This document shows positions 12,847 through 57,529 of a stretch of 64,000 bases of DNA, piece after piece. Under the pieces are notes generated by a model that saw only the letters and a list, made by a program, of their open reading frames with translations, did not search any database and was not told the DNA's origin. The stretch is from Auritidibacter sp. Marseille-P8566 (GTDB lineage Bacteria; Actinomycetota; Actinomycetes; Actinomycetales; Microbacteriaceae). The stretch covers positions 1-64,000 of the forward strand of contig CAMDEE010000003.1 of NCBI GenBank assembly GCA_945895375.1. Direction: 5' to 3'. The first letter of the stretch is position 1; each line of letters begins with the position of its first letter. Both the position numbers and the translations under genes were made by a program.

Positions 12847-12903
12847 GCGAGCCTCCAGATAAAGAGTGACCGTTTCGCACAAAACTTACTAACAGATTAG
12901 CAG

Positions 12904-12936: not shown

Positions 12937-12960
12937 ATCAGTGTTTACACAGAAAGGGGT

Positions 12961-13581: not shown

Positions 13582-13592
13582 TAGTCTCTTCC

Positions 13593-14171: not shown

Positions 14172-14196
14172 TTACTGCTCCTCTAATCTGTTTTGC

Positions 14197-14225
14197 ATAA
14201 TCAAGATAACCGAGGAAACCCACAA
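14197..14225 (-). promoter_or_regulatory. Promoter of clpP1-clpP2
   Basis: On the minus strand TTGTGG (14225-14220) and GATTAT (14202-14197) are separated by 17 bases. This would give a transcript with a leader of about 20 bases carrying the AGAGGAG ribosome binding site. Confidence 0.5.
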
Positions 14226-14236
14226 AACATTCTCAT

Positions 14237-14250
14237 GTTCGCCACAGGCA
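14237..14250 (-). promoter_or_regulatory. ClgR-like operator upstream of clpP1
   Basis: GTTCGC-N5-GCA on the plus strand matches the known streptomycete ClgR box pattern GTTCGC-N5-GCG except for the last base. It lies just upstream of the predicted clpP1 -35 box, where an activator would bind. ClgR is known to activate clp genes in actinobacteria; no clgR gene is in this window. Confidence 0.4.
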
Positions 14251-14265
14251 ATAATCGCCTAGAGA

Positions 14266-40200: not shown

Positions 40201-43200
40201 CGGAGTAGTTACCTTCACACAGGTTGCAAACTGGACAGGCAACGCGAATGCCGTTACTTACATGATCAAAGACGCTCTTGGATCACCTGCATATGCAACA
40301 GTGGCAGCAACAGTTCAAGCTGTAGCACCTGTTATCAATACAACTGCTTTACCAAGTGACCTAATCAACACAAGTTATTCACACACTCTTTCAGGTACTG
40401 CTGGTAGCGCAACTATGCCAGCGAGCCCTTGGAATGTCACAGGATTGCCAACAGGGCTTACTTACAACCCTTCCAATGGTTTGATATCAGGAACCGCAAG
40501 CGTCGCAGGAACATTCGATGTCACAATTCAATACACCGCGAATGATGGACGACGCGCGTTCAAGACCCTTCCAATCAAGATCGGTACAGCGCCAGTTATC
40601 TCGAACGTAGTTGAAGCTGGTCAGACTAAGACTTGGCTGCCATATGTGCAGTTGAATCTGCCAATTGAACCGTTTGCCGTTACTGTGAACCCTGGCACAT
40701 TCCCTCTTGCAGCCACTGGTGCGTGGGCAATTACCAGTGGTGCTCTACCAACGGGTCTGACTCTTAATCCTGACACCGGTGTGATCACTGGAACTGCAAC
40801 TGTTCCACAGATGAACAACAGTGGAATCGTGGTCTTTACAGTTACCGTTACCGACTCTATTGGGCTGACAGATACACATGTGTTTAATATTGACATCTTG
40901 ACACCACCTACTATTACTACTGGTGTTTTGACATCTATTGCCGGAGTTGCAGATACAGAATCAAACTCATTTAATGCTGGGTCAATTTACGCCTATGCCT
41001 ACTCAACACTTGCTGTCAACGGTGCATGGAGCGCTACTGGACTACCGGCCGGTGTCACCATCAACGCGAACAGCGGTGTGATGAGTGGCACTCCTACCAC
41101 TCCTGGCATCTACACTCCGTTGGTAAAAGTAAGAGATAGTTACGGAGCCGTTGGTTCCAAGACTCTTACTTGGAATGTCATTGAACGACCTTCCGTAGCA
41201 TCCACTTCTCTGCCAGTTGCTCAGATTGGTTTGGCTTATCCAAACTTCCTACTTGCAGCGACTAAGGGCACAGATCTAATTAGGACAACTGGAACAGCAT
41301 GGAGCGCAACAGGACTTCCAACTGGACTGACCCTGAATGCCACTACCGGCGCGATTACAGGAACAACTTCTGTAGCTGCAGGAAGCTTTAACATAGTTGT
41401 AACTGTATTTGACGTCAATGGAGTGGCTTCGCTTCCTAAGACTCTCATACTTACAGTTACAGGCCCAAGTGCTGTAACCACCCCAAGCCCATTGGCTCAA
41501 GCTATAGCCAGATCAGCAATCCAGCCAATTAACCAAACTTTCACTTTGGCTTCGGGTGCAAGTGTTCCTGCTACAGGAGCTTGGAGTTCGACAGGCCTAC
41601 CTAATGGCTTGGTTATCAACCCAGATACTGGTGTAATCACGGGAACCCCTACCCTAGGTGGAACATACACAAATATCGTTGTGTCTTTAACTGATTCACT
41701 TGGATCAAAGAGCTCGAAGACATTGACCATGGTTATAGCAGAGCCACCATCAATTCTTGAACCGAGCCCATTCCGAGCAATCGTTCAGAATGTTGCTCTC
41801 ACTGCAAATCAAATGGGGGTTCTGGCTTCGCCTGGAACTGCAAACATTACAAGTTACGCAATCAAAGCGCCGGGTGTGATTCCTGCTGGATTAACTTTGA
41901 ACGCAGCAACTGGAGCGATCACAGGAACTCCGACAACGATTGGTAACTACAGCTTTATTGTTGTTGTCACCGATGCTGCAGGTTTAAGCGATGAGAAGCA
42001 GTTTGCGCTCTATGTCGGGACAAAGCCAACCATCACCAACACAACAACTCCAGACCGAGTAACTGGAACTCCTGCAGTGGAACCGCTGTCGACACAGGTT
42101 CCTATGTCACCTTTCACCCAGACAGCAGAAGTGGGAAGTTCACCTCTTCCAGCGACAGGTGCATGGTCTGCCACTGGTTTACCTGCAGGGATGGTCATTA
42201 ACCCCGACACAGGAGTGATCAGTGGAACTCCAACAGCTGTTGTTACGAATGCTTCCGTTGTTGTCACACTCACTGACAGCAAGGGGCTTACGGCTACCAA
42301 GACATACACAATCAGCACAATTGCCCCACCAACTGTGACAACTGTGAACCCAGCCGCAATGATCCTGAACTCTGCTATTGCAACTTGGACTCAGACAAAG
42401 ACTGCTGGTACTGGTGCACTGCTAAGTGCAAATGCTTGGTCAGCAGTTGGTCTGCCAGCTGGACTCACACTAAATACAACTACTGGTGCAGTGACTGGAA
42501 CACCTACAGTGTCTGGAGAGTTTGACGTTACCTTTACAGTCACAGACGTAAATGGTCTGTCTGGCACAAAGCTTGAGCAGGTAGTTGTTGCTGCTCCCCC
42601 AACTATCGCTACTGGTGCTGATCTTGGAATTGTTGCTCTCAACAGAGAGATGACTCAGGTCCCACAGATTGTAACTAAGGGCACCGGAAACATTCTTACA
42701 ACCGATGGTTGGGTAGTAACCGCGCCAAACACTGGATTACCAGCCGGTATGTGGGTAAACCCAAATACTGGTCGAATCATGGGTATTCCAAGCGTTGCTG
42801 GCGTTCAGAAGTTCACTCTTAGAGTCACTGATGAATACGGCTTGAGCGCAACCAAAGAATTCACAATCACGGTTGTTACACCGCCAACCATAACTACCGC
42901 CGACCCACTTCCAATAGTAACTTCCGGTGTTGCAATGACACCTGTAACTTTGGCTGCAACCAGAGGTACTGGAACTATTCCAACAACTGGAACAGTTTGG
43001 ACGGTTGATCCAACCACTCCTCTGCCTGCGGGTATTTCTCTCAATGAGGCAACGGGACAGCTAACCGGCACAGCCACACAGGCTGGACTGTATCCGATCA
43101 ACTTCATCATCACTGATTCAAATGGTGTTAAGAACTCGAAGACCCTAACTCTTCCAGTGCTCAACGCTCCACGGATTACTTCAGCAACTGCAGTAGCTCC

Positions 43201-45274
43201 TGCTGTAACCGCGCTACCGCCTGTTGGAAGAAACATCGTTATGTCACCTGCCCAACTAGTTGCGGCAGAGGGTAGCTACCCGCTTCTAACTGCTGCTGCT
43301 TGGAGCATCACTGCTGGATCTCTTCCTGCTGGGCTAAGCATGAGTACCACAACCGGTGTGATCTCTGGAACACCTACAACACTAGGAACAGCCACATTCA
43401 CTGTAAAAGTAGTAGACCAGGCAGGTCTATTTGCCACAGCTCAATTCAGCATCTTGGTTGCAGCAGCTCCTACAGTTACAACACCAAGCCCTGTTACCCC
43501 AACCGCGATTCAGGGAACTGCAATTAGTCCTGTTAGCCAAACTTTCACTTTAGGAGTCGGAGCAACAGTTCCTGCAACTGGTGCTTGGAAGGCAATTGGT
43601 CTTCCTGCAGGCTTGAGCATTAACCCCGACACAGGTGTTATCTCAGGTACGCCTACAGAGGCAGGTTCATTCGTTATTGGAGTTACCTTGACCGATTCAA
43701 ATGGAGTCCCTGGAAGTAAGAATCTGAATCTGACAGTGGCCGCTCCGCCAACTATTGAAACTCCATTGACATTGCCGCCAACAGTTGCGAGTTCTGTAAT
43801 GGATGCCGTCACACAGCTATTCACCCAAGGAACCTCAGCAATTGGCGCTACTGGTGCGTGGACTGTTTCTAATGGAACCCTTCCTGCTGGATTAAGCCTC
43901 AACCCAGACTCTGGTCAAATCACGGGGACCCCAACTACTGCCGGTTCATTCACATTCACTGTGAAGCTAACCGACTCCGTGGGGGCAAGCGACACAGCAA
44001 CATTCAATCTCACAGTTGTGGAATCGGGTAAGAACCTAATTGCGTTCAACCTGCCAGCCAATATTATGGATGGCGTACCAGCCGATCATCCAGCTATTGC
44101 CCTTACCGGAAAAGCTGTTGATGCGATGAAGCTGCCAATTACATACAGCGCAAGTCCAAGTAGTGTTTGTGTCGTTGACTCATCAAACATGTTGAAGGTT
44201 GTTTCTGGTGGTAGTTGTACAGTTAAGGCCTCAGCTGGTTCAGGGAACACCCTAGCCGAAGATTCTAAAACTTTTGTGGTTGAGAAGCTTTCACAAACTC
44301 TAAGTTCAGTATCACCAGGAGCAGTAATTCCTGGCGGAACCACTTTAGCTCCGGCTGCAACAGATCATCCTGCCGGCTTCCAGTTCATTGCTTCATCAAG
44401 TTCTGGTTTGACTCCGATTTACACATCACTTCACCCAGAAGTCTGTGATATCGATGAGTCAGGTTTAGTGATTTGGAATGCTGACCTAACTGTCGTTCCT
44501 AGAGTTGATAGTGACTTCGTTTGTAACATTCAGGTCTCTCAACCGGGTAATGGAAGATACAACGCAGCAGTAAACAGAGTGGTTGAACTTCGAGCTACCC
44601 ACATCGAACCAACACCTCCTCCAGGCGGTGTTACACCTGAGAAGCCACAAGTTGCTGCATTGCCAGCTACTGGCGGCACCACTCCGATGCTTGGAAGCAA
44701 CGCATTTACTGTCAAGGTTGATAACAAGAAGAAGACCGTTACAGTGCAGCCTCTTTCTAAGGGTCGCTGGATTGGCCCTATTTACGCTGACATAACTATC
44801 TCGTACACACCTAAGGGCAGCACAACTGGCAAGGTACAAGTCTGTAAGCGCAACTCTTTCGGTATCGCAGTAACTGATGCGAAGACTAAGAAGATAATTA
44901 CACCAGCGCTTGGTGGAAACAACCTAGTTGTTCCGGAGGCAAAGCTCAACGCTAAGGGTCTAGCAGCTCTTATCAAGACTTACCAAGCCATGTCGAGCAA
45001 GTACACCACCACAAAGATAGTTAAGGGTAAGCCAGTCAAATCTCCTGGTTACTTGGACTTCAAGAACTTCACCGGAGAGGCAACATGTGTTCTAGATAAG
45101 AATGCATATGCAGCTTGGAAGTCTGGGGTTCAAATCACAGCGAAGGCGAAGGTAACCAGAGATCGCCGTTGGCCAACTACCTACACTCGCTACAAGTCAT
45201 ACGACTGGAAGAAGAAGAGCAAAAACGGCGTGATCTACCCAACAGTTGTTGATTGGACTCTGACAATCGGCTAA
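37244..45274 (+). CDS. Giant secreted repeat protein, putative adhesin
   Basis: 2676-residue exported protein, almost an eighth of the window. It has a signal peptide ending near ASA|AP (residue 39), an N-terminal Cys-rich region (about 160-530), a Cna-B/SdrD-like beta domain near 695-770, two CshA-type fibril repeats (about 830-1025), then 13 putative Ig domains of the He_PIG type (about 1030-2265), each with the core G-LPAGL-x-NP-TG-ISGTPT. A Pro-rich linker with LPATGG (2473-2478) and a 199-residue basic C-terminal domain follow. No membrane anchor follows LPATGG, so sortase anchoring is doubtful. Likely a fibrous adhesin or matrix protein. It has two candidate starts, the ATG at 37244 or at 37256. 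It ends at a strong terminator. Confidence 0.85.
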   Translation: MIQAMRLNRPFLSRVPAVAATLALVTGAVAFIPSIASAAPTVSNTLSVNSVESGGKVLLSTTMPMVTSTDNSTQEVIQTIDPAKVRLTSPDDVIAPTGWTVRYSQDGVNFLSTPTNWASVIKVKATGPIDSAGLTTEGKQILSRSVQIPANGSTRTATGSNGDGYDVVFDSRGYLFNTYHHGSPSATDCRKRIDGTSCGSSWPLSLTTWGFVSNDRPSNFVDNVNNHLWFNTADASGPGYMCIDINVINSPKPCGGSKATAYHPMLTAAAGTTAYSSTNLVESNGMLFSWANTAGVLTCIDYLANDGLGADCAKELPSTTRVPVNQGDAVQNLISWRGLVIGYQADTAVCVDSRTLETCAGWPSADHKFSAIQSAVYIEPDAQGNQLGVCFHPSATCFNYAGATFKANSTLHSQMSKNWFYSNEGVTSGSKVIYSDVYTSGNLWCFDVATNAGCAKWNDSGIAGYKYVPKVYTRQLDPDNPNCLWTNGDDGVIRNIDITSSDFGCPSPSPRSTFDGALLVPRMACDASVSLATYNKFVLSNVVAGTDYSSASLTVLDKAGAPIVSSGKSWLSIPLVVNGATATADLSGLKVSDAGNDPTFVIDFVNRATITTAVGTISVSSEAAQLCMTLTTNVICPNLVQYVTPVDGSTTFAAAGVTISQAGVRTTYTTANATLSIKAPTGSQCGSLVSGTVTNGSSGPAISGARISLNDGVTGNPKLGSNNQPITTTSNALGEFSFGYLEPGSYKVNFADLDAVGGVGTGDATTARLCAGSAVTCVSTASVNFTAQASLDSPAFTTTVGNNQAIQALYTVPADANADSLYVGKNTATALDILANDRPTTGAAWSQSTLKLCSGTPAVCATTAVTIDSAEGTYSLNGAGKVTFTPVSGFTGVAKPITYQISDDRGRTDSAVLTPTVLEAPTANNDTLTGDFRAPITVNVVTNDAATAGTTIDAGSVKLCAVGTTTVCALTSVTVAGQGTYAVASTGVVTFTQVANWTGNANAVTYMIKDALGSPAYATVAATVQAVAPVINTTALPSDLINTSYSHTLSGTAGSATMPASPWNVTGLPTGLTYNPSNGLISGTASVAGTFDVTIQYTANDGRRAFKTLPIKIGTAPVISNVVEAGQTKTWLPYVQLNLPIEPFAVTVNPGTFPLAATGAWAITSGALPTGLTLNPDTGVITGTATVPQMNNSGIVVFTVTVTDSIGLTDTHVFNIDILTPPTITTGVLTSIAGVADTESNSFNAGSIYAYAYSTLAVNGAWSATGLPAGVTINANSGVMSGTPTTPGIYTPLVKVRDSYGAVGSKTLTWNVIERPSVASTSLPVAQIGLAYPNFLLAATKGTDLIRTTGTAWSATGLPTGLTLNATTGAITGTTSVAAGSFNIVVTVFDVNGVASLPKTLILTVTGPSAVTTPSPLAQAIARSAIQPINQTFTLASGASVPATGAWSSTGLPNGLVINPDTGVITGTPTLGGTYTNIVVSLTDSLGSKSSKTLTMVIAEPPSILEPSPFRAIVQNVALTANQMGVLASPGTANITSYAIKAPGVIPAGLTLNAATGAITGTPTTIGNYSFIVVVTDAAGLSDEKQFALYVGTKPTITNTTTPDRVTGTPAVEPLSTQVPMSPFTQTAEVGSSPLPATGAWSATGLPAGMVINPDTGVISGTPTAVVTNASVVVTLTDSKGLTATKTYTISTIAPPTVTTVNPAAMILNSAIATWTQTKTAGTGALLSANAWSAVGLPAGLTLNTTTGAVTGTPTVSGEFDVTFTVTDVNGLSGTKLEQVVVAAPPTIATGADLGIVALNREMTQVPQIVTKGTGNILTTDGWVVTAPNTGLPAGMWVNPNTGRIMGIPSVAGVQKFTLRVTDEYGLSATKEFTITVVTPPTITTADPLPIVTSGVAMTPVTLAATRGTGTIPTTGTVWTVDPTTPLPAGISLNEATGQLTGTATQAGLYPINFIITDSNGVKNSKTLTLPVLNAPRITSATAVAPAVTALPPVGRNIVMSPAQLVAAEGSYPLLTAAAWSITAGSLPAGLSMSTTTGVISGTPTTLGTATFTVKVVDQAGLFATAQFSILVAAAPTVTTPSPVTPTAIQGTAISPVSQTFTLGVGATVPATGAWKAIGLPAGLSINPDTGVISGTPTEAGSFVIGVTLTDSNGVPGSKNLNLTVAAPPTIETPLTLPPTVASSVMDAVTQLFTQGTSAIGATGAWTVSNGTLPAGLSLNPDSGQITGTPTTAGSFTFTVKLTDSVGASDTATFNLTVVESGKNLIAFNLPANIMDGVPADHPAIALTGKAVDAMKLPITYSASPSSVCVVDSSNMLKVVSGGSCTVKASAGSGNTLAEDSKTFVVEKLSQTLSSVSPGAVIPGGTTLAPAATDHPAGFQFIASSSSGLTPIYTSLHPEVCDIDESGLVIWNADLTVVPRVDSDFVCNIQVSQPGNGRYNAAVNRVVELRATHIEPTPPPGGVTPEKPQVAALPATGGTTPMLGSNAFTVKVDNKKKTVTVQPLSKGRWIGPIYADITISYTPKGSTTGKVQVCKRNSFGIAVTDAKTKKIITPALGGNNLVVPEAKLNAKGLAALIKTYQAMSSKYTTTKIVKGKPVKSPGYLDFKNFTGEATCVLDKNAYAAWKSGVQITAKAKVTRDRRWPTTYTRYKSYDWKKKSKNGVIYPTVVDWTLTIG

Positions 45275-45332: not shown

Positions 45333-46316
45333 TTACGGGGTTGTTTCCTTGACCCAGGTAGCAACCTCTGAGTTGAAGATGTTTGGCTGCTCTTCTTGGG
45401 GCAAGTGAGCGCTCTTAGGTACAAGAACCAGCTTGTTGTTCTTGATCTCAGTGGCTAGTTTCTCGGTATTAGCAGTTGGCACTACTTCATCAAACTTGCC
45501 TGTAATCAACAATGTTGGCTGGTTGATTGAAGCTAGGTTTTCAACCAGTTTGCTGTCTCTAGGGGCCGTTGAAAACTCCCAGAATGCCCTTTCCCAGCCC
45601 GTTATCTGCAGTGGAGCGGTGTAGCCCTCGCGAACCTCTTCAGTCAGTTGAGACTGGTCGTAGTAGCTCCTTACCAGCAGGTCTTGGCCGCTTGTTGCTA
45701 TCTCACGGACTAGGAATGGCCCTAGACGGTCAATCTGTGGGATGACCTTTAGTGGGTTGATCCAAGAGGTCCCTGTGCCATTTGAATAGACCGCAGGAGC
45801 CACGAGAATGAGTCTCTGGACCTTGTCTGGGTTCAACCTTGCATACTCTGCAGCTAGGCTGCCTCCGGCTGAATGGCCAACCAGGATGACTTCTTGGTCC
45901 GCCCCGAACTTAGCGATGAGTCCATCAAGAATCTCGAAGTTACCTTCAAAGCCATATGGGTTAGCCCCACTCCAGCTGGTCGGTCTATCGGTGAATCCAA
46001 AACCTGGTCGGTCATAGGCAAGAACTTCGCCCTGCTTACTCATAGAATCCATCACATAGCGCCAAGAGAAGGTGCTAGCGCCAAAGCCATGAAGCAAGAT
46101 AAACAACGGGACATTCTCTAACTTGTTACCTGAGTAAGGTTCGGTATCGATGTGGACATTGATGTCATTGATCGTCGCAAACTCAGCATTAGCGCCAGCT
46201 GCTTCAATGTTGGTTTTAGTTCCACTGGAATCAAATGGAATAACCATTGGAACAATAAGGAAAGCTGCAATACCAAGCAGTAATGCTCGGGTCATAAATT
46301 TACGGAATGCTCGCAT
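45333..46316 (-). CDS. Alpha/beta hydrolase, membrane-anchored
   Basis: 327-residue hydrolase with an N-terminal hydrophobic segment (about 9-27), so anchored outside the membrane or secreted. The nucleophile is S149 in VGHSAGGSL, the oxyanion block HGFGAS is at 76-81, and the acid and His are in GKFDEVVP and KSAHLPQEE. Substrate unknown (esterase, lipase or epoxide-type cap). It has a Ser nucleophile, so it is not an OleB-type lactone decarboxylase, which would use Asp. The promoter TAAACT lies seven bases before the ATG. Confidence 0.9.
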   Translation of the reverse strand: MRAFRKFMTRALLLGIAAFLIVPMVIPFDSSGTKTNIEAAGANAEFATINDINVHIDTEPYSGNKLENVPLFILLHGFGASTFSWRYVMDSMSKQGEVLAYDRPGFGFTDRPTSWSGANPYGFEGNFEILDGLIAKFGADQEVILVGHSAGGSLAAEYARLNPDKVQRLILVAPAVYSNGTGTSWINPLKVIPQIDRLGPFLVREIATSGQDLLVRSYYDQSQLTEEVREGYTAPLQITGWERAFWEFSTAPRDSKLVENLASINQPTLLITGKFDEVVPTANTEKLATEIKNNKLVLVPKSAHLPQEEQPNIFNSEVATWVKETTP

Positions 46317-47109: not shown

Positions 47110-47712
47110 ATGCTTGGTGCTATTGAATACTTCAAGTCCAAGAAGCTGCTGGTTGGCCTACTAGCAGCGTTGGTTAGTTTTCAACTTCCAGTAACTTGGG
47201 TTGTTTGCGCCTACTGCTTTCCAGTGTACGACAGCGTGGCGCAGTCCCTTAGTGAACTTAGCGCTGACGATTCGCCCGTGAAATGGGTGGTTAGAAGTTC
47301 AATTATTTTTCAAGCAGCCCTGATCGCTTTGATATCACTTACAGCGACTTCAATTGCACGAGTTGGAAAGATTCTTCTCTTGCTCGCAGCCTTGTTTATG
47401 TTGGCGTCAGCACTTGTTTCTTCACCTTCGCAAACAGATTATTCTCCCGCTCATCGTGTTGCATCATTTTTGGCATTTGCTTTAGGTTGCCTCTGGCCAG
47501 CGTTTTCAAAGCGCAGGGGTGAGAACGGTGCAATTTCAAGATCCACTGGAATCCTAATTTCTCTGGGTTTCCTAGCCTTCACCTTGGTTGGTTGGTCATT
47601 CTGGGCGTTTGCCAGCCAGACCTATTTTGGAATTCTGCAGCGGCTAAACATTCTGGGCCAATCTATATTTCTTGGCTGGTATTGGTGGAGTAGTTTCAGA
47701 AAGCTGGGTTAG
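47110..47712 (+). CDS. DUF998-like membrane protein
   Basis: 200 residues with about six hydrophobic helices; the first half (YDSVAQSLSELSA after helix one, SPAHRVASFLAF later) resembles DUF998 proteins of unknown function. Its 3' end overlaps the end of the convergent OleD-like gene by 17 bases. It is on the opposite strand to the biosynthetic operon, so a link is not implied. Confidence 0.75.
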   Translation: MLGAIEYFKSKKLLVGLLAALVSFQLPVTWVVCAYCFPVYDSVAQSLSELSADDSPVKWVVRSSIIFQAALIALISLTATSIARVGKILLLLAALFMLASALVSSPSQTDYSPAHRVASFLAFALGCLWPAFSKRRGENGAISRSTGILISLGFLAFTLVGWSFWAFASQTYFGILQRLNILGQSIFLGWYWWSSFRKLG

Positions 47713-48595
47713 CCTCTGGTGCATAGCCGAGGAGGGATCTTGTTTCGCTAATGTCATAGCTGCGATCGTAAGCCAGTTGTGAAATGGAATACCTTGACCG
47801 TTTTGGCTCTCTGCCGCCTAGCGCAAACAATTCACCAAAAAGTCCCGCAGTCATTGCAATAGGCAGTGGAACTGAAGTTATGTTTACTGAATCTGGAAGA
47901 AGTGAATTTTTGATTGCATGAGCGATAGAAGTTGCCTTGCCGTCAGAGACGTTCAGTGTGATGTTTCCATTCCAACCGGAACGGAATTTACTGATAGATA
48001 AATCGATTGCCTGACTGAAATTCTTCAACGAAGTGAATTCGTGCATTGCTCTTCCGGCATTAGGCAGGCGAAGAGCACCATTTCTGATAGCTCCTTTTAC
48101 TCTAGGCAGAAGGGTCTGATCGTCTGGGCCAATTAGTGCATGTGGTCGCAGGATGATCGCCTCTCGCTGCGTCCTCACATAGATCTGCTCGGACTCAAAC
48201 TTCGATTGCGAGTAACTGTTTAGAAATGGATACATTCCCGTGGCTTGGTCAGTACTCACCTCAACGCTCGGCTTCCTCAAGTCGTACACACTTGAGGAAC
48301 TTACTAGGATTTGCGGCCCAGTTGAAATTGCAAGGCAGTTAGTGGCAATAGCAAGATTTGTGTTCAATATTTCTTGACTAAAGCCATCCCTTGTTACGGC
48401 AGCTGCATTTATAACAATTGACTCTTTCAAGTCATTTAGTTTGATTGACTTAGTCAGATCATGACAAATGAATTCCAACCCAGAGATACCTGGATCAGTT
48501 CTAGAAATTCCAGCAACTTCATGCCCTGACCCAATGAGCTCCTTGGCAATATAAGTTCCAAGGGTTCCACTGACACCGGCGATTACGATTCTCAC
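47696..48595 (-). CDS. NAD(P)-dependent epimerase/reductase, OleD-like
   Basis: 299-residue extended SDR. The cofactor loop is GVSGTLGTYIA (about 7-17), and the active-site Ser and Tyr/Lys are in VSSSSVYD and YSQSKFESE. OleD enzymes reduce the 2-alkyl-3-keto acid made by OleA; the setting with OleA- and OleC-like genes makes this the likely role. A sugar epimerase is the main alternative, because the generic fold is shared and a glycosyltransferase is in the operon. It is the last gene of the five-gene operon, overlapping the AMP-ligase gene by four bases. Confidence 0.82.
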   Translation of the reverse strand: MRIVIAGVSGTLGTYIAKELIGSGHEVAGISRTDPGISGLEFICHDLTKSIKLNDLKESIVINAAAVTRDGFSQEILNTNLAIATNCLAISTGPQILVSSSSVYDLRKPSVEVSTDQATGMYPFLNSYSQSKFESEQIYVRTQREAIILRPHALIGPDDQTLLPRVKGAIRNGALRLPNAGRAMHEFTSLKNFSQAIDLSISKFRSGWNGNITLNVSDGKATSIAHAIKNSLLPDSVNITSVPLPIAMTAGLFGELFALGGREPKRSRYSISQLAYDRSYDISETRSLLGYAPEANPAF

Positions 48596-50100
48596 TGCTT
48601 AGCCTCGGCCAATTCTTTTTTGGCTATCTCGAAAAGTTTTGTCATGTCCCGCTTGTTATCCCTACCGGTGAGCGGCATTGTTTCAAGGAATACCACCTGA
48701 TCAGGCAGAGCCTCCTTGTCCACATGGATTGGTAGCTCAGAGCGTATGAGCTCTCGTAACTGCTTGGAGTCAGGTACCTGCTGGTCTAGCAAGATGAAGA
48801 GAACAATTTGATCATCTTGAAATTCATCTGGGACTCCGACCATGACGGCGTCTTGAACGCCAACAATTGTGGTGATGCCAGGTTCATAAAGGCTTGGATA
48901 AATGTTCATCTCACCACGAATCATCATGTTTTTCTTTCGTGCCAGCATGAGCAGGTTGCCATGATTATCTACCCTCATGAGATCACCTGTTGGGTGCCAT
49001 TGCTCTGGAGCACGACCAAGATAGTTTTTCATCAGACCAGAACCCCGCACTTGAAGTTCACCATCACTTGCCAAACGCACTTCTACGCCTTCAATTGGTT
49101 GTCCAAGAAAGTCTCCCTTTACATTCAAGAACTTCTCACGACCATCACAATAGGCAACTGGCAGAATCTCGGTCATACCGTAAAGGCAAGGGATACGCGT
49201 GTCCTCGCCCACCACGTCAATAACCCGTTGCACCAAACTCGGCGGGATTGGTGCACCACCCATTCCGAAGTACTCAATTTGATTCTTCGGAGCTCCCTGA
49301 ATTTCAAATTCTTTCATGAGATCAAGTGCAGCTGTTGGAACGGCAAAATACTTGTTGCAGGTCAAGTTTGGCTTTCGCTCAGGAATAAACCAGGTGGCAC
49401 CAGAAGACATGGCCACCATCCCCACGGTGATTGGCCCACAGTAAAATCTATCTTTCGGTTTGAAATCAAAGATTCTTGAAGTTTCATCAAAATTAACTGA
49501 AATTGATTCCAGTGAGTGAACAACACCTTTTGGATCAGCCGTGGTTCCACTGGTGAACACGATTATTGAGTCCGAATTCAGAACTCTCCCAATTGACGAA
49601 ACTTGACCTACTGGACTAAAGAAATCTCTGCTAGCACTTCTTGCTCTTTTTGGTAGAAAGGGTAGCCTTCGACCCGTGAAATAGAAATCAGCACCTTGGA
49701 TAGCGCCATAATCGGCGATAGTAATCTTTAGCAGCCTTCGCAGTAACGAAGCCTTGTTCGAACCGATTGTAAAGAGTGTTGATTCTGCAATCACGAACTT
49801 AGGTTCTAATAACCCGATTCGAACGTGAAATGAGTTGAGAGCAGTAAAAGGATCTAGAAAGGAAACTCGAAGACCAGCTCGAACTAGACCTAACACGAGA
49901 CTTATTGAATTAGGTGTCGGCTTACTTGCAAAGATAAAAGTGTCTCCTGGTTGGTATCCCAAACGATAGGCATTTGCCGAGACAAGCTCGATGTTTCTCC
50001 AGAGTTCTCTGAACGTGATGGACTCTGCCGAGAAGACAATTGCTTTATCATCAGGCTGTTTTTGGGCTAGTGTTTCCAAATTGTCTAAGAAGGTCGGCAT
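48592..50100 (-). CDS. AMP-dependent ligase, OleC-like (candidate beta-lactone synthetase)
   Basis: 502-residue ANL-superfamily adenylating enzyme. The P-loop is FTSGTTADPKG (182-192), the second motif CLYGMTEILPVA (306-317), TGDLMR near 375 and the C-terminal subdomain lysine region TGRDNKRDM. The phrase YG-TE-LPV and the absence of a carrier-protein or CoA partner nearby are reminiscent of OleC, which closes 3-hydroxy acids to beta-lactones. An ordinary fatty acyl-AMP/CoA ligase remains possible. It overlaps the P450 gene by 16 bases and the reductase gene by four, so all are translated together. Confidence 0.82.
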   Translation of the reverse strand: MPTFLDNLETLAQKQPDDKAIVFSAESITFRELWRNIELVSANAYRLGYQPGDTFIFASKPTPNSISLVLGLVRAGLRVSFLDPFTALNSFHVRIGLLEPKFVIAESTLFTIGSNKASLLRRLLKITIADYGAIQGADFYFTGRRLPFLPKRARSASRDFFSPVGQVSSIGRVLNSDSIIVFTSGTTADPKGVVHSLESISVNFDETSRIFDFKPKDRFYCGPITVGMVAMSSGATWFIPERKPNLTCNKYFAVPTAALDLMKEFEIQGAPKNQIEYFGMGGAPIPPSLVQRVIDVVGEDTRIPCLYGMTEILPVAYCDGREKFLNVKGDFLGQPIEGVEVRLASDGELQVRGSGLMKNYLGRAPEQWHPTGDLMRVDNHGNLLMLARKKNMMIRGEMNIYPSLYEPGITTIVGVQDAVMVGVPDEFQDDQIVLFILLDQQVPDSKQLRELIRSELPIHVDKEALPDQVVFLETMPLTGRDNKRDMTKLFEIAKKELAEAKQ

Positions 50101-51278
50101 TGAATCACCAGCTTTGAGTAACCTGCAGTTAGAGTGCCCTTGCGTATTTTTGATTCGATGATTGTGAATTTCTTACCGCTGAAGCGATTGATAAGTTCCT
50201 TAGTAACTTCTAGGATTTCCAGCTGTGCTAGCGGCATTCCAATGCACAAATGAACCCCTGCACCGAACCAAAGATTTCTAAGTACCTTGGGCATTGGGCG
50301 CATGGGATCAAAGCCACCTGCTCTTCTGCAAGCTAAAGTAGTTGCCAGCAGGATGCGGTCTCCCGGTTTCACCGAAACCTTTCCTATCGTGGCCGGTGAC
50401 ACAACACCGCGCAGCATCACCGGTGTCGGAACGGTAACACGAAGCCCTTCTTGAACTAGCTCATCGAGATCTAGGTCTTTTGCTTCACCGCTTTCGATTA
50501 CTCTGCCCGTCACCAGTAATTGAATAAATCTTGGCAGGTGAGAGATTACAGTTTCGGTTCCTGCGATGATTAGCGCGGTGATGATTGATGTAACTTCGTC
50601 CTTACTGAATCCATGTTGTTTCAGAAGATAGGGAATGGTTGCTACCTGATTGCGCTCGTACGCCTCACTGATTCTTAGATGGATGCTTTCAAGTTCTGAA
50701 ATAGCTGTTTTGACTTCATGGGGAAGCATTTGCTTTCTAGTTAACTTCACAAAACGTAGCAAGCCCCTTGCCCTGTCCAATTGCAGTAATAACTCTCGCT
50801 CTTCGGTTTCAGCGATGTCGTATCCGCTCAAGGTGCAAACGACTCTAGCCGCCATGAGTTCTATGTGAGAAACAACATCTACTTTTTCACCTGAACTAAG
50901 TTGGTCTGCTAACTGTCTAGCTGACCGACGTATGGTATCGCCAACCATTTCGTCTAATACCTTGCCATTAAACAAAGGAGTTAGTTTTCGTTTCAGTTCA
51001 AGATGATCAACACCTGACATGTTGAGTAAGCCTGGGCCACGCAAGATAGGATCCCATAGGTCACTGGTGCCTCCAGGGGCAGTTTTACTAAAGTTCTGGG
51101 TGTCCATCAAGACGCTTCGGAGTATATTCCCATCTGAAACCAAAATACCTATGAATGGAATTCGGACTACTGGCCCAAAAGTAGACATCCATCGAATGAA
51201 TGACAGTTCCAGCGGCCTCGATAGGAATGAAACCCAACGATCGTTTTTAGTTGCGCGCCTTAGACCCTGATTAGTCAT
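50085..51278 (-). CDS. Cytochrome P450
   Basis: Haem monooxygenase of 397 residues, soluble bacterial type. The oxygen-binding I-helix motif is AGTETV, the ExxR motif EGLR in LVQEGLRV, and the haem Cys C345 in FGAGVHLCIG. The start ATG at 51278 overlaps the glycosyltransferase stop (ATGA); an upstream in-frame start at 51323 would overlap it by 48 bases and is less likely. No dedicated ferredoxin is in the operon. It would probably hydroxylate the acyl product of the neighbouring ketosynthase pathway. Confidence 0.93.
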   Translation of the reverse strand: MTNQGLRRATKNDRWVSFLSRPLELSFIRWMSTFGPVVRIPFIGILVSDGNILRSVLMDTQNFSKTAPGGTSDLWDPILRGPGLLNMSGVDHLELKRKLTPLFNGKVLDEMVGDTIRRSARQLADQLSSGEKVDVVSHIELMAARVVCTLSGYDIAETEERELLLQLDRARGLLRFVKLTRKQMLPHEVKTAISELESIHLRISEAYERNQVATIPYLLKQHGFSKDEVTSIITALIIAGTETVISHLPRFIQLLVTGRVIESGEAKDLDLDELVQEGLRVTVPTPVMLRGVVSPATIGKVSVKPGDRILLATTLACRRAGGFDPMRPMPKVLRNLWFGAGVHLCIGMPLAQLEILEVTKELINRFSGKKFTIIESKIRKGTLTAGYSKLVIQCRPS

Positions 51279-52021
51279 CGAATATCTATCTCGTTGCCTT
51301 GAAATGAATGGCTCGCGTACCATTTTAGGGAGTTGGCCAACCCCCAGGCATTGATTCTTCTGGCAGATACCTGAACTCGCATCGACCTCACTCGATAAAC
51401 TTTTCCCCCCTTGGAACGCAAATCATTCACTAGAGCTCGATCTTCGTGAAGTTCTTCAATTTTGCTTCTTCTAAACCCTCCTGCAGAGAGGTAACTCTGG
51501 CTATCTATAGCCAAATTATTACCATTGGTCATCACATATCTTCCACGTCGGCCTCCTCCGTAGTTTGAAGGTCGTAGCAGACCAAAGGTGGCAGCTAGAA
51601 GAGATGCTGCTCTCAGAACTAAATATCTACCTCGAGTCAATTCATCTGCGATAGGCACTGTAATGCCGGAAGCCATTCCATGTGGATGTTTTCTAAAGTG
51701 CTTTTGAATGCTTTTTGTCCAAAGTCGATCTACTAACGCATCAGCGTCTGTTCTGGCAATCAGATTGAAGCCTTGAGTAATCGCTTTGCGAAAAGCCGTA
51801 TCTGATGCTGACCCTGTCCCCTTTGCGTCTTCATGAACTACCTCTAAATCAAGTTCTAAGGACAGTGCTGTAGCTATCGCAATCGATGCTGTTTGATCAG
51901 TTGAGCCATTGTCACAAAGAAATATCTTGAAGTTGCGATCTTCTTGCAAACTCAGTGATTTCAGAGTTTTTGCTATGTAGTTGGACTCGTTGTAGCAAGG
52001 AATGCAGATTGCAAGCTTCAT
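51275..52021 (-). CDS. Family 2 glycosyltransferase
   Basis: 248-residue GT-A fold enzyme using a nucleotide-sugar donor. It begins with the typical IPCYNESNYIAKTL, has CDNGSTDQT for donor binding, and the metal-binding DxD at residues 92-94 in RTDADAL. The acceptor-side HED motif appears as LHEDRAL. There is a weakly hydrophobic stretch near 135-155 but no firm membrane anchor. It overlaps the ketosynthase stop by four bases and the P450 start by four, so it appears to be an integral step of the pathway rather than a neighbour. Confidence 0.9.
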   Translation of the reverse strand: MKLAICIPCYNESNYIAKTLKSLSLQEDRNFKIFLCDNGSTDQTASIAIATALSLELDLEVVHEDAKGTGSASDTAFRKAITQGFNLIARTDADALVDRLWTKSIQKHFRKHPHGMASGITVPIADELTRGRYLVLRAASLLAATFGLLRPSNYGGGRRGRYVMTNGNNLAIDSQSYLSAGGFRRSKIEELHEDRALVNDLRSKGGKVYRVRSMRVQVSARRINAWGLANSLKWYASHSFQGNEIDIR

Positions 52022-53031
52022 AGCCTGAAAATTCCCAAACCTGTGGAAATACCACCCGCTAGACCGATGTATGCAAACAAATCACCTTTGCGCAGTAATC
52101 CGCTTTCCATTCCAAGTTCAATTTGTAACGCCATCGTGGCAGTTGTCATGTTTCCATAGTCAGCTACCGTCTTTATGACTTTTTCAGTTGGAACGTTAAG
52201 TACCTTACAAATGTCATCTATATAAGGTGCAGCCACTTGATGCATTCCAATCGCCTTGAAATCTGCCCAAGTGTAACCATTGGCTTCTAAAGTCTCATTT
52301 AGAATTCCAGGACCGAGACTCATGAAGGCCTCGGCAAGTTTACGCCCATCCATATCGAAGTAAGTTGTTTCGATGTCCCGTGGGCTTCTAGATCCACCCA
52401 TGCCAAGTGTGCCAACATCCCAACGGTTCGAATCTGATCTGAACTCAATGGCTAAGATTCCTTCATCGTCCTCCTCTGATGCAGCTAACACGGTTGCTGC
52501 TCCGGCGTCACTCATGGTAAAACCAGCGAATGATCTAAGGAACTGATCTTTGTCTGCAGAGGCCCAACGAATAGCCATGCTTGGTGTCTCCCCGCTGACT
52601 ATCAAGACTTTCTTGTATTGCCCTATCTTGATCAGCGCATTGGCTACCTGCATTCCATTTAGAAAGCTGTTGCAGGCATTTTTGACATCCATAACTGGAA
52701 CACCTTCGGCACCTAATAGCGATGCAACAATGTGACTTGTTGCAGGTTCAATCAAATCCTGACTAGCCGAAGCAAAAATCAATAAGTCAATGTCACCTAT
52801 TGTTAGGTCAGCTCTCTGCAAAGCTTTTCGACCAGCCATAGCCGCAAAGTCTGAGGTGTTTTGTCCCTCAATTCTTCGGTAAACAGTTTCAACCCCGGTT
52901 AGCCTAGTTACATATCCGACTGGAAATTTTTTAGGAAGAGACTCTTCCGCCACACGGTCTAGTACCTCAGACATTTTGGTTTTGATTGGCCCTAATTCGC
53001 TGGCCATGGAAATTATCTTTGTTGTTATCAT
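52018..53031 (-). CDS. 3-oxoacyl-ACP synthase III / OleA-like ketosynthase
   Basis: Thiolase-fold condensing enzyme of 337 residues. The catalytic triad is intact: C120 in VKNACNSFLNG, H264 in AIGMHQVAAP and N294 in DYGNMTTA. The block LIEPATSHIVASLLG and NAC-FLNGM resemble OleA, which condenses two acyl-CoAs head to head, as well as FabH. I chose the ATG at 53031 over a TTG at 53043 because GGGGG lies five bases upstream. It is the first gene of the operon, so the pathway starts with chain condensation. Confidence 0.88.
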   Translation of the reverse strand: MITTKIISMASELGPIKTKMSEVLDRVAEESLPKKFPVGYVTRLTGVETVYRRIEGQNTSDFAAMAGRKALQRADLTIGDIDLLIFASASQDLIEPATSHIVASLLGAEGVPVMDVKNACNSFLNGMQVANALIKIGQYKKVLIVSGETPSMAIRWASADKDQFLRSFAGFTMSDAGAATVLAASEEDDEGILAIEFRSDSNRWDVGTLGMGGSRSPRDIETTYFDMDGRKLAEAFMSLGPGILNETLEANGYTWADFKAIGMHQVAAPYIDDICKVLNVPTEKVIKTVADYGNMTTATMALQIELGMESGLLRKGDLFAYIGLAGGISTGLGIFRL

Positions 53032-53138
53032 CGCCGCCCCCAATGCTGTTATTGATTCAAATTAGGCTCTCATACTAGCACTTAGCAAAAGCAACATATC
53101 AAAATCGTGTTGTGTTGATTTCTCGCTTTTTAAATGGT

Positions 53139-53204: not shown

Positions 53205-54089
53205 CTAGCCGAATCGGCCAGTTACGTAGTCCTGAGTTCTAGGGTCATCAGGGTTCTGGAAGATCTTGGTGGTATCACCCTGCTCAACGATTACACCAGG
53301 GGTTCCCGCTTCAGCTAGGAAGAATGCGCACTGGTCTGAAACTCTGGCTGCCTGCTGCATGTTGTGAGTAACGATAACGATGGTAACTTCACTGGCTAGC
53401 TCCAAGATGGTCTCTTCAATACGGAAAGTAGATGTTGGGTCAAGAGCTGAACATGGCTCATCCATTAGAAGCACTCTAGGAGTCACTGACAGTGATCGAG
53501 CAATACATAGTCGCTGCTGCTGACCACCTGACAGACCTCCACCTGGGGCATCTAAACGGTCCTGAACTTCTTTCCAAAGTCCTGCCTTGGTTAGAGACTG
53601 CTCAACGATGTCATCGAACTCACTCTTGCTCTTCTTGATTGAGGTAAGACGAAGCCCAGAGATCACGTTTTCGTAGATGCTCATCGCAGGGAATGGGTTT
53701 GGCTTCTGGAACACCATACCAATTTCACGCCTAGCATCAGTTACGCGCTTGGTTGGGTCGTAGATGTCCACTCCATCAAGCAAAACCTGGCCTGCCATAG
53801 AGGCAGTTGGGACTAGTTCGTGCATTCTGTTTAGAACTCTTAGGAAAGTTGACTTACCGCAACCAGATGGTCCAATCAACGCGGTAACTTTACCTGGCTG
53901 CATGGTTAGGTTGATGCGGTCAAGAACTTTACGCTGACCAAACCAAGCAGAGACATCCTCACCTGTGATGGTTGCCAAGCTAGCTGAACCTGAACTCTTC
54001 TTACCTGCAGAGCGACTCATGGTAATTGGCTTCACTGCAACTCTTGAGTCGCTTGTTGTTGGCGACTTAGGTCCTGATGCTGGGCTCAC
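53205..54089 (-). CDS. pstB: Phosphate ABC transporter ATP-binding protein
   Basis: Cytoplasmic ATPase powering the phosphate importer; 294 residues from the GTG at 54089, chosen because GGAAAGGAA lies upstream and the longer frame would run into the preceding gene. Walker A is GPSGCGKST (73-81), the signature LSGGQQQRL and Walker [14 protein letters not shown] are intact, and the Q-loop is in VFQKPNPFP, the PstB hallmark. A 40-residue low-complexity N-terminal extension precedes the ABC domain, longer than in typical PstB (about 255). It is the last gene of the pst region. No phoU is in the window. Confidence 0.96.
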
Positions 54090-54114
54090 TTTGAGTTCCT
54101 TTCCTTTGTGATTT

Positions 54115-55089
54115 CTAAAGCAAATTCGGTAGTAGTTGAATGATCTGACTCGCCCAGACGCCTCCAAAGAAAGCAACTGCTGGGGTTCCTGCAATCCAAG
54201 CCTGCACTCTGCCCCACTTCCTAGAAAGCCAGCTAATGGCGAACATAAGCAGTATCAAGAACTGAGTCATAAAAATTAGCGGTGTCACAGCATCCATGTT
54301 TGATGCCAGTGCAGCTTCATTTTCGGCAATTGCTCTGTTTGGAATGACACGGTTTGGAGTTGCCTTAGGTGCACCGTCAAGAGTTGCTTCAACTCGAATA
54401 ACATCTGTTGCAAAATATGGAAGACCGGATGCAGAGACAAGAGTTAGTCTGCCCATAGACGAACCAAGACCGTTCGTGGCTTCGTCCCCAGCTCTTCTTA
54501 TGTTTGAGACTGTGTATGAACTCTCACCCTGACCAGTGATGGCTTCGATCTTATCGCCGACAGTTAGCTCGCTAAGTCTGGAAAACACACCGCTGTAAGA
54601 AGACTGTCTTCCATAGATAACTGATATTCCAGCTTGACCAGGTAGAACTGTGTCTCTGCGGTGACCAGGTCCATCCACAGTTACTGCTGAAGATGTTCCT
54701 TCTAGAACGATTTCGTTCACGTCTATCTTTTTAATTTTTAATACTGCAACCGGGGTGCCCTGCTCGATAAGGTTGCCTTCAGAATCCACCTGCCCGACAG
54801 GAGCAGTACCGTTAGCTAATTCGAACCTAAAAGTTTCGTTAGCTTTGAATTGAGCACTCTCATACTGCACGTGGGAAACAATAAACAATTGGCCCACCAA
54901 AACCAGTGCCGCGGCACCAAGACCTACTAGCGCTCTTCCTGCAAAAAATCTGATGTTTTCAGGTTTCGGTGTAGGCACCATGTTGTCAATGAGGTCAGAG
55001 CTCGGAGCGCTCTGGCCAATAGTTGGTAAAGAAAACTTAGGTATAGCGGATTTAGGAACGAGGCCCTTAGAAAGCTTCACTCGATACAC
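54115..55089 (-). CDS. Sortase-fold membrane protein lacking catalytic residues (pseudosortase)
   Basis: 324 residues: N-terminal cytoplasmic tail, membrane helix (about 50-71), an extracytoplasmic sortase-like domain (about 105-240) and two C-terminal membrane helices. The sortase scaffold is clear: [15 protein letters not shown], then [13 protein letters not shown] and YTVSNI. However, where sortases have GHR it has GRQ (160-162), where they have LTLTTC it has LTLVSA (215-220), and the catalytic Arg position is V230. It therefore cannot transpeptidate in the usual way. Its location inside the pst locus suggests a structural role with the anchored phosphate-binding proteins. Confidence 0.75.
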
Positions 55090-55118
55090 CGTTCTGTCCG
55101 TTTGCCTAAATAAGCCTA

Positions 55119-55150
55119 TATCGTGGCCCCCTGTTTAGGGGGCCACGATA
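55119..55150 (-). terminator. Very stable hairpin after the PstS-like Ig-repeat gene
   Basis: A perfect 14-bp inverted repeat (55119-55132 with 55137-55150) with a 4-base loop, 21 bases past the stop at 55172. It has no U-tract. It sits directly before a TAGGCT -10-like box of the pseudosortase gene (55117-55112), so it may both end one message and separate the next. Confidence 0.65.
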
Positions 55151-55171
55151 CCTAGACTTTGGTGCTTTTTG

Positions 55172-57376
55172 TTACTTTGTGACCTTGAAGGTCTTTGTTG
55201 TTGTGGATTCGGCTACATCTGCGCTACCACCGTAGAACACCTTGACGGTGTATGTACCTACAGTTGTGATCTTCGCGAACTTTAGTGTTGCCTTACCAGC
55301 TGATAGCTTCACAAGTGCAGATGAAACCTGAACTGGAACCTTCTTTGAGTTGTAAACAACTGCAAATACTGTTCCTGTGGCTCCTACTGTGCTTGTGCTC
55401 TTTCCCGCCTTGATTGTTACTGAAACAGTCGGAAGAGCTGATGTCTTATAAGACGCTCCAACTGTAATCAATGTGTAGCTGGTGTTCTTTAGCGCTACCG
55501 GCAAAGCAGAAGTTGTTCTGCTTGAAGTTGCAACTTCAGCGTTTGAAGGCACGAACTCACCAACAAGGTTGTAAGAGACTTTCTCACCCTTAGCCTGGTC
55601 GATGGTTACAGTAGCGGTTGCACCTGTTACAGCAACAGTCTTCAAGATTGCTCCTGAGAAGTCTGTGTTGTAGATATTTAGGTTACCGTTCTGTCCACCA
55701 GTGAAGGTAGCTGTGAATGTTGCTGAAAGACCGTTTGATGCAACAGTTGCCGCACCGAATGAAACACTAGTTTCGGTCTTTGCTACAGCTGGAGCAGCCA
55801 AGGTGATTGTGGTTCCGTTTAGAGCGCTTGAGCTTACGTCAACACCTGTAAGGACAGGTACGAACTGAGCTGTAACAGTCTTTTCGAATGCTGCTTCAGT
55901 GGTGTTTGTAACAGTGATGTCAACAGTTGTTGCACCCTTTGCTACTACACCTGATGCAACTTCTGCCTGGTCTGGAGTTCCAAAGCCTGAGAACAGAGTT
56001 ACTGTTCCACCCTGGTTACCGTTTGAAGCAACAGTTGCAGTCACAGTAGCGCTTGATCCGCTAGCAGCAACAACAGGAGCTCCTAGAGTTACTGTGCTTG
56101 CTGAAGGAGCGTAGACACGGTTGGCTGCAATGATGTTTCCACAAATTGTTGACTGTCCGCCAGTGGTCTCACCAAGTTCTGCGTCAACACCTGTGTAAGA
56201 AAGCAGACCGTAACCAAACTTCTGAATTACTGCCTTTGCTTGGCAAACTAGAGAGTTAGTTCCTCTGAATGCGCGAGTGTAAGCATTTTCTTCATCTGCG
56301 TTGATTAGTGCTGTAGGAACAATGTTGTACACAGCTCTCTTGATTGCAGACCAGGTTGGCGCTGTTGCGTAAACACCGTCAGTAACTACAACAGGCTCTA
56401 GTCCGCCAATTGAACGAAGGATTGCACCAGCAGTACGCTTTGGAGCAACACCGTTAGTCTGTGCAACCCACTGTGAGATTGAGAAACCAACAAGTGCGTA
56501 TGGGTCAGTCGCTACTGCAGTTCCATCGTGCTCCTGAACAGTTACTCCACCTGGGGTGATGTCCTTAGCAGGGAATGTACCGTTTGTGATACCTGCATCG
56601 GTGATACCAACAGTTGAGTTCCAGAATGAACGTGTGCCAGATCCAGCCTGAGGAACGTATGCACGGATTGTGGTAGCAACTTCACCTGCAGCAGGTGTGT
56701 AGCTTGGAGCAGCAAGTTTGATGAAAGCACCAGTTGATGCGTCCTCAATTACCTTGGTGATGTTTCCCTTGTAGATGTTCATCAAAGAAACTTCAGAAGT
56801 GTTTCCTGCTGAGCCTACTGGAATGTCTGAAGGGATCTTTGTGATGTTTAGAGGAGCAGTTGCGTAAGTCATGTTGTCCTGGGCGAAAGGAACGTATGTT
56901 ACAACACCGTTCGCAACCGCACCGCTAGGACCTGAAGATGAACGTGCGTAGTGGAATTTTCCAGCTAGCTGAGCAGTTGTAGGGCTAACCGCACTTCTTG
57001 ACTTACCAAGGTCATCTGGAGCGATTGCAACAGAACCTGAGTTAATCTGACCGATCGCGATACGAAGTGCGTCACGTCCTGCACTTGAACCGTTAGCACG
57101 AGGAATTGCAATTCCATCTGCAGAAACTACTACGTCAGCTGAACCGATTGCCTTGTAGCTTGCAAGCTTTAGTCTTGTGTCAGAAACGCTGACATCTCCT
57201 AGAGCTAGAGAAATACCATCCATGACATCCATGGTTGTGTCAGAGCCAAGACCGACTAGCTCTGCATACTTGTTTACTGAAACTGGATCAGCCATTACCG
57301 GCATTGCGGTTCCTGCTGCAATAACAGCTGCACCGCTAAGGGCGACTGTTACTTGAGCGAACAACTTGTTCTTCAA
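55172..57376 (-). CDS. Secreted PstS-like substrate-binding domain with Ig-like repeats
   Basis: 734-residue exported protein. Signal peptide cleaved near VMA|DP (residue 29); the N-terminal half (about 30-420) is a periplasmic-binding-protein fold with VGLGSDTTMDVMDG, ANGSSAGRDAL and PQAGSGTRSFW, of which SGT resembles the phosphate-binding loop of PstS. The C-terminal half holds several beta-sandwich (Ig-like) repeats ending in KVFYGGSADVAESTTT. No membrane anchor is visible, so it may be cell-wall bound or released. Ribosome binding site GAAAGGAAC precedes the ATG. Its substrate may be phosphate or a phosphonate/organic phosphate, by context only. Confidence 0.8.
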   Translation of the reverse strand: MKNKLFAQVTVALSGAAVIAAGTAMPVMADPVSVNKYAELVGLGSDTTMDVMDGISLALGDVSVSDTRLKLASYKAIGSADVVVSADGIAIPRANGSSAGRDALRIAIGQINSGSVAIAPDDLGKSRSAVSPTTAQLAGKFHYARSSSGPSGAVANGVVTYVPFAQDNMTYATAPLNITKIPSDIPVGSAGNTSEVSLMNIYKGNITKVIEDASTGAFIKLAAPSYTPAAGEVATTIRAYVPQAGSGTRSFWNSTVGITDAGITNGTFPAKDITPGGVTVQEHDGTAVATDPYALVGFSISQWVAQTNGVAPKRTAGAILRSIGGLEPVVVTDGVYATAPTWSAIKRAVYNIVPTALINADEENAYTRAFRGTNSLVCQAKAVIQKFGYGLLSYTGVDAELGETTGGQSTICGNIIAANRVYAPSASTVTLGAPVVAASGSSATVTATVASNGNQGGTVTLFSGFGTPDQAEVASGVVAKGATTVDITVTNTTEAAFEKTVTAQFVPVLTGVDVSSSALNGTTITLAAPAVAKTETSVSFGAATVASNGLSATFTATFTGGQNGNLNIYNTDFSGAILKTVAVTGATATVTIDQAKGEKVSYNLVGEFVPSNAEVATSSRTTSALPVALKNTSYTLITVGASYKTSALPTVSVTIKAGKSTSTVGATGTVFAVVYNSKKVPVQVSSALVKLSAGKATLKFAKITTVGTYTVKVFYGGSADVAESTTTKTFKVTK

Positions 57377-57435
57377 TGTAGTTCCTTTCGAAGGTTGGAC
57401 TCTGCTGTTCCAAGGTGGAAAGCATGTGTTTATTA

Positions 57436-57467
57436 CAAGTTCATTCTTAGTTTGCTTAGTGAACTTG
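57436..57467. repeat. Inverted repeat in the promoter region of the PstS-like Ig-repeat gene
   Basis: CAAGTTCA (57436-57443) and TGAACTTG (57460-57467) with a 16-base spacer that itself carries two CTTAG copies. It lies 60-90 bases upstream of the gene start, so a regulator-binding site is plausible. Confidence 0.4.
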
Positions 57468-57491
57468 AGTGGTAATTCTGGTATAAATCTG

Positions 57492-57519
57492 GTTAATCAA
57501 AAGTGTACAAATGATTAAC
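57492..57519. repeat. Inverted repeat between two secreted-protein genes
   Basis: GTTAATCA (57492-57499) and TGATTAAC (57512-57519) with a 12-base spacer, just past the stop of the 57530-59920 gene. It may be a weak terminator or a second operator. Confidence 0.4.
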
Positions 57520-57529
57520 TAAGCCAAAT

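Follow-up and report, generated by a model that had tools for sequence, protein, structure and literature searches.

Described Systems Closest to the Window Operon

Smith et al. (2020, PMC7064751; cited here from excerpts, as is PMC7158056) described a genomic region of Actinoplanes atraurantiacus that comprises OleA, a glycosyltransferase, OleC, a cytochrome P450, and OleD in a genome without oleB, and proposed a route of condensation, reduction, hydroxylation, glycosylation, and beta-lactone closure. Here, we analyzed a 64,000-nucleotide stretch of Auritidibacter sp. Marseille-P8566 (contig CAMDEE010000003.1, positions 1 to 64,000), which is referred to as the window. It carries an operon of five genes, encoding a ketosynthase (KS), a GT2-family glycosyltransferase, a P450, an AMP-forming ligase, and an extended short-chain dehydrogenase/reductase (SDR). 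The operon probably joins two fatty chains and oxidizes and sugar-tags the product, and it may close a lactone. It adds a further case, found in an unusually small genome, to a pathway that is predicted and widespread. The original prediction had stated that this gene set was not known from any described system. This claim of novelty fails, as the chemistry envisaged is essentially that of the proposal in PMC7064751, where the five kinds of proteins are reported without oleB.

The A. atraurantiacus region and the window operon have in common the five protein kinds, the lack of oleB, and the match to the proposed route. They differ in gene order, as the excerpted text lists OleC before the P450, whereas the P450 precedes the ligase in the window (a comparison by description only), and in that the window set lies in a 1.43 Mb genome (G000; 1,427,996 bases, 99.82% complete). 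A second relative is found on plasmid pKVP2 of Streptomyces viridifaciens (BOQ63_042930-042910), where genes for a KS, a GT2, an acyl-CoA ligase, a P450, and an NAD(P)-dependent oxidoreductase are contiguous and annotated with no function given. Its KS is 36–40% identical to the window KS, depending on the method; however, its ligase gene precedes the P450 gene, and its P450 is only 24% identical. The canonical oleA-oleBC-oleD loci of Micrococcales (G284, G298, and G043) share the three core reaction types and the KS residues (Glu-Pro, Cys, His, and Asn), but they have OleB, and neither GT2 nor P450 was seen in the stretches read. The oleACD clusters for lipstatin and nocardiolactone also lack oleB, with a beta-lactone as end product (PMC7064751). 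As far as a description allows comparison, lipstatin differs by its heterodimeric LstA/LstB, as opposed to one KS in the window. Among the matches listed for the open-licence literature, there was no second publication on the five-gene set, and a phrase search on glycosylated beta-lactones in the same literature gave no match.

Operon Layout and Selection

The operon spans positions 53031–47696 on the minus strand in the order KS-GT2-P450-ligase-SDR. The Pfam assignment agrees for each of the five genes, which are given below with the evidence used.

52018..53031, minus strand: KS, predicted OleA-type ketosynthase III (E95, C120, H264, N294); ORF, Pfam, alignments, tree
51275..52021, minus strand: GT2-family glycosyltransferase with invariant D92-A93-D94; ORF, Pfam, 12-sequence alignment
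50085..51278, minus strand: cytochrome P450 with intact heme Cys345, E277xxR280, and AGTET; ORF, Pfam, 15-sequence alignment
48592..50100, minus strand: AMP-forming ligase from a clade placed as sister to OleC with moderate support; ORF, Pfam, NCBIfam, tree
47696..48595, minus strand: extended SDR, closest model OleD (2-alkyl-3-oxoalkanoate reductase); ORF, Pfam, NCBIfam

The KS open reading frame extends over 52018–53043 from a TTG, with an ATG at 53031. The P450 frame covers 50085–51323, and its second ATG at 51278 yields the compact overlap. Read at the junctions, the overlaps amount to 4 bases (KS/GT2), 4 bases (GT2/P450, from the ATG at 51278), 16 bases (P450/ligase), and 4 bases (ligase/SDR, GTGA), which agrees with the 4–16 bases of the original prediction; that the genes must be translated together is more than overlaps can show. 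The residues it had named were likewise read at their positions, i.e., C120, H264, and N294 of the KS, C345 of the P450, and the YG-TE-LPV motif of the ligase. The KS also shows E95-P96. In the P450, C345 lies in FGAGVHLC, accompanied by EGLR at 277–280 and AGTET in the I helix. The ligase shows TSGTT at 183, YGMTE at 307, and LPVA at 313, and the SDR shows GVSGTLG at 7 and YSQSK at 128, the Rossmann GxxGxxG and the YxxxK being general SDR features.

An independent copy of the operon (L001; L and G numbers denote loci and genomes) is present in a metagenome-assembled genome of the same genus, Micrococcales bacterium isolate TH-Jun18-132. Comparison with the window gave dN/dS values of 0.031, 0.083, 0.052, 0.104, and 0.119 for the five genes (simple Nei-Gojobori estimate; dS 0.8–1.4, with the KS near saturation). 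The low values indicate that all five are kept as working genes. As the same five genes also recur together in distant genomes, the operon is beyond chance: it is real and under purifying selection. Judged by sequence, the enzyme-class reading of the operon holds.

The Ketosynthase Carries the OleA-Type Catalytic Base

C120, H264, and N294 are invariant in 22 OleA-type rows of the alignment and are common to FabH, too. The distinguishing position is E95-P96, which aligns with Glu117-Pro of the Xanthomonas campestris OleA (PDB 3row chain; the residue number was taken from PMC7064751 and reached via a numbering offset inferred from the catalytic Cys). This Glu117, the general base, is present in all but two of the OleAs surveyed in PMC7064751. 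Glu-Pro occurs in 22/22 OleA-type rows, the Glu being invariant, and Thr-Pro in 10/10 FabH rows. The latter are further KS genes of the genomes under comparison, and all ten score above the TIGR00747 cut-off. In the KS tree, these verified FabHs separate as a group (100/99) that does not include the window KS; a housekeeping FabH was rejected on this basis. The Glu-Pro base supports the predicted assignment of the window KS as an OleA-type condensing enzyme, the class originally claimed for it.

Several observations weigh against this assignment. The tree program warned that the long OleA and FabH branches meet, and the KS is 24–26% identical to three canonical OleAs. It scores slightly higher with the FabH-like model PRK09352 (163.9 bits) than with the OleA-like model PRK09258 (149.8 bits), both below cut-off; the curated cut-off of PRK09258 is 285 bits, and the canonical OleA of G284 reaches 437.2. 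Moreover, the Actinoplanes OleA, of which little enzyme was recovered, cleaved p-nitrophenyl hexanoate and did not react with C8–C16 acyl-CoAs (PMC7064751). The overall similarity to FabH models would also suit a housekeeping FabH next to unrelated genes gathered by chance. With a recurrent five-gene operon, an OleA-type Glu-Pro, a separate FabH in the compared genomes, and purifying selection on the other side, we regard such a gathering as extremely improbable.

A published survey of OleAs used the pattern EPxx[AS]x(14,18)DxxNACL (PMC7158056). In the clade of the window KS, NACN replaces NACL, and the pattern was matched by 0/19 clade rows, compared to 3/3 canonical OleAs and 0/10 FabHs. Once its last residue was freed, 17 of the 19 clade rows matched. 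The survey pattern would therefore miss this KS clade, and Glu-Pro together with NACN provides a sequence handle for the operon family.

SDR, P450, and GT2, and the Absence of OleB

The best NCBIfam model for the SDR was OleD (NF042422, 65.5 bits), followed by NF042423 (51.7) and others at ≤29.1; sugar epimerase models scored it at ≤27.9 bits. OleD was also the best SDR model in three further five- or three-gene loci (L055, L059, and L065, with 113.9, 117.4, and 76.1 bits). What counts against an OleD-like SDR is that 65.5 bits lie far under the NF042422 cut-off of 580. The original assignment stands insofar as OleD is the best model and the sugar epimerase models are not the closest by score, and falls short at the cut-off; an OleD-like SDR is supported as a prediction.

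Within the P450 alignment (n = 15), E277, R280, T243, and C345 do not vary, and G240-T241-E242 is almost fully conserved. With these residues kept, the P450 looks like a working monooxygenase. The genome holds two further P450 genes and a Fer4_15 ferredoxin gene. All sequences of the GT2 alignment (n = 12) share the DAD motif and a C-terminal DR..N.

That no OleB accompanies these enzymes was borne out genome-wide. A single OleB sequence, taken from the OleBC fusion of G284, was run on 14 genomes and recovered the positive controls G284, G298, and G043 as well as a weak match in G264 (1.3e-5). The other 10 of the 14 genomes gave no match, including G000 with 0 matches at E ≤ 1e-3, although a very distant OleB could escape such a query. 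Downstream of the operon, we noted an alpha/beta hydrolase (45333–46316) with a hydrophobic N terminus and matches to haloalkane dehalogenase-like models. It was considered as a hidden OleB and rejected, since the OleB query had no match in this genome.

A Ligase outside the Fatty Acyl-CoA Synthetases, with OleC as Moderately Supported Sister

Model scores for the ligase speak against an OleC. Its best NCBIfam model was the long-chain acyl-CoA ligase PRK06187 (138.7 bits), ahead of PRK09274 (96.9), and the olefin beta-lactone synthetase models NF045786 and NF045785 were absent among the best 25 of 93 families listed for it. Its identity to OleC is 21–24%. Canonical OleCs reach 334–339 bits with PRK09274 and 271–272 bits with the olefin beta-lactone synthetase model. 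The cut-off of the latter is very strict, as canonical OleCs themselves obtain only 271–272 of 900 bits; NF045786 was listed for three relative ligases with 72.7–81.9 bits, against the same cut-off of 900.

A tree of 40 rows comprised 13 operon ligases, 5 OleC-type ligases, and 22 other ligases (adenylation domains of nonribosomal peptide synthetases were left out). All 13 operon ligases formed one clade (100/99), which was sister to the five OleC-type rows at 90/87; that this sister position was not starred tempers the grouping. Of the other ligases, all but a MenE (21/22) were separated from these at 100/99. Their labels derive from scans of 20 of the 22 (L093 and L094 left out), of which 17 matched a fatty-acid-type CoA ligase model best, one was MenE, and two had no match at E ≤ 1e-95. 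On this tree, an ordinary acyl-CoA synthetase was rejected, and a predicted OleC-like ligase outside the fatty acyl-CoA synthetases has moderate support. The original claim of an OleC-type enzyme is supported in part, by the separation from the 21 acyl-CoA-type ligases and the unstarred place beside OleC, but not by the NCBIfam OleC models. As these scores are undecided and the sister position is at 90/87, we call the ligase OleC-like and not a proven OleC.

These data also bear on a ligase that would only supply the KS by loading fatty acids onto CoA or a carrier, with a ringless hydroxylated, glycosylated 3-hydroxy acid or ketone as product. PRK06187 as best single model fits this role, and one locus (L059) keeps KS-P450-SDR with no ligase nearby. 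We nevertheless consider a mere loading enzyme quite unlikely, given the 100/99 separation of 21/22 same-order ligases from the operon and OleC clades, and the fatty-acid-type CoA ligase models that fit 17/20 scanned comparison ligases best.

The Gene Set Recurs across Actinomycetes

Within the genus (G000 and 35 other genomes), a ligase of near-full identity (84%) was found in G011 alone. At the order level, a P450 of the window kind was found in 13/297 genomes at E ≤ 1e-60 (own genome included) and in 21 at E ≤ 1e-10, and at the class level, 32/394 genomes had a KS match at E ≤ 1e-40. A naive reading of wide spread is countered by the phylum, where the P450 query matched only the window among 396 genomes (E ≤ 1e-25), an undercount because at most four candidates were scored per genome. 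Among plasmids, the P450 had no match at E ≤ 1e-20, though a divergent P450 is present in pKVP2.

In total, 26 loci with KS and GT2 were scored across Actinomycetes, with nine KS loci without GT2 kept outside the denominator. KS precedes GT2 in 26/26 loci, and all five genes are present in 21/26. The latter fraction is not an unbiased rate, because 27 of the 32 matched class genomes remained once own, G188, G273, G284, and G043 were set aside, and only 16 of these were fetched. The SDR of L114 shows up in two pieces. The SDR is missing in three of the 26 loci (L022, L053, and L117). Two gene orders occur, i.e., KS-GT2-P450-ligase-SDR as in the window, and KS-GT2-ligase-P450-SDR as in pKVP2 and L116–L120. 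A gene set proposed once before as a glycosylated beta-lactone route is now seen as a recurrent operon family. A 1007-aa frame of G043 was examined as an OleBC fusion and discarded, as locus reading shows a separate ligase adjoining a P450.

A second, different P450 lies on the opposite strand beside the operon in 8/26 loci (L051, L052, L055, L057, L058, L060, L061, and L109). These P450s are 50–61% alike among themselves, and none lies beside the window operon. In L060 (G318), a 684-aa frame without Pfam match sits on the opposite strand between P450 and ligase (12347–14401).

Proposed Pathway and the Link between GT2 and Ligase

We lean towards a lipid natural-product pathway of the A. atraurantiacus type, in which the ligase most likely closes a beta-lactone. 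The KS would link two acyl thioesters into a 2-alkyl-3-keto acid by a non-decarboxylative Claisen condensation, and the SDR would reduce its ketone. The P450 would hydroxylate a chain, and the GT2 would attach a sugar to a hydroxyl. The OleC-like ligase would adenylate the carboxylate and close an ester, most likely a beta-lactone without decarboxylation.

The main new clue is the bond between GT2 and ligase. GT2 and an operon-type ligase occur together in 26/26 loci, and they form one reading frame in L108 and L110, as do GT2 and P450 in L055, with both domains found by Pfam in each fusion. Such fusions are relevant to the mechanism and point to glycosylation as an integral step of the pathway and not a late addition. 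In none of the nine KS loci without GT2 (L054, L059, L066–L069, and L121–L123) was an operon-type ligase placed, and four of them (L066, L068, L121, and L123) have an OleC-type ligase instead. Besides this ligase, L066, L121, and L123 comprise KS, SDR, and an alpha/beta hydrolase.

It is mainly because of this bond that a sugar ester is kept as an alternative to the beta-lactone. In that case, the ligase, acting together with the GT2, would activate the carboxylate so that it is esterified with the sugar (macrolactone or acyl-sugar) or with another acceptor. In addition to the joint presence, fusion, and joint absence of the two genes, a seemingly variable carboxyl-activating partner agrees with such a glycolipid ester. 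In L054 (positions 3043–10989 of this locus; genome G273), an F390-synthetase-like adenylating enzyme and an HpnI-like GT21 replace ligase and glycosyltransferase near KS-P450 and an OleD-like SDR, and in L059, an ATP-grasp/acetyltransferase protein precedes KS-P450-SDR. However, the nearest ligase clade is OleC, known for beta-lactone formation (PMC7158056), and co-occurrence of GT2 and ligase is no proof of a common substrate. We therefore regard a glycolipid ester as possible but on the unlikely side. Its more specific form, in which the OleC-like ligase may esterify the two-chain hydroxy acid with the GT2-placed sugar to a ring-closed or acylated glycolipid without a beta-lactone, is put forward more tentatively still. 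If true, such sugar-ester glycolipids would form a class that has no known representative, is widespread in Actinomycetes, and escapes OleA surveys owing to the NACN of its KS.

Neither the beta-lactone nor the sugar ester explains L108 and L110, which consist of KS and the GT2-ligase fusion with no P450 or SDR match nearby and sit ill with the simple order of steps. Regarding the favored beta-lactone, such compounds are reactive enzyme inhibitors, which makes the product class worth identifying, and the very small Auritidibacter genome offers a simple source of the pathway.

Two side observations concern the GT2-less loci. An apparently frame-broken GT1-like stretch lies near KS-P450 in L054. 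In L066 (Streptomyces BHT-5-2), which also has a hydrolase, a ligase, and an SDR, and in L122 (G1042), the KS adjoins a very long frame that, by eye, resembles a modular polyketide synthase.

Genomic Surroundings of the Operon

One further gene overlaps the end of the operon.

47110..47712, plus strand: DUF998 membrane protein, convergent, 17-base overlap with the SDR end; ORF, Pfam

It also stands beside the operon in L001, and none was found beside the operon at 20 other loci (tblastn, 1e-4); its membership in the pathway is doubtful. On the other side, a phosphate-type ABC transporter run (two permeases, a PBP_like_2 binding protein, and an ATPase) occupies 53205–63676 on the minus strand, interrupted by a sortase (54115–55089) and two long proteins that lack a Pfam match. 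The ATPase gene has the same orientation as the KS, which starts about 170 bases after it. A coupling of the operon to these upstream pst genes was rejected, as L001 has different neighbors on that side. Further downstream, positions 37244–45274 encode a secreted-looking protein of 2676 aa, in which many repeated segments are visible by eye.

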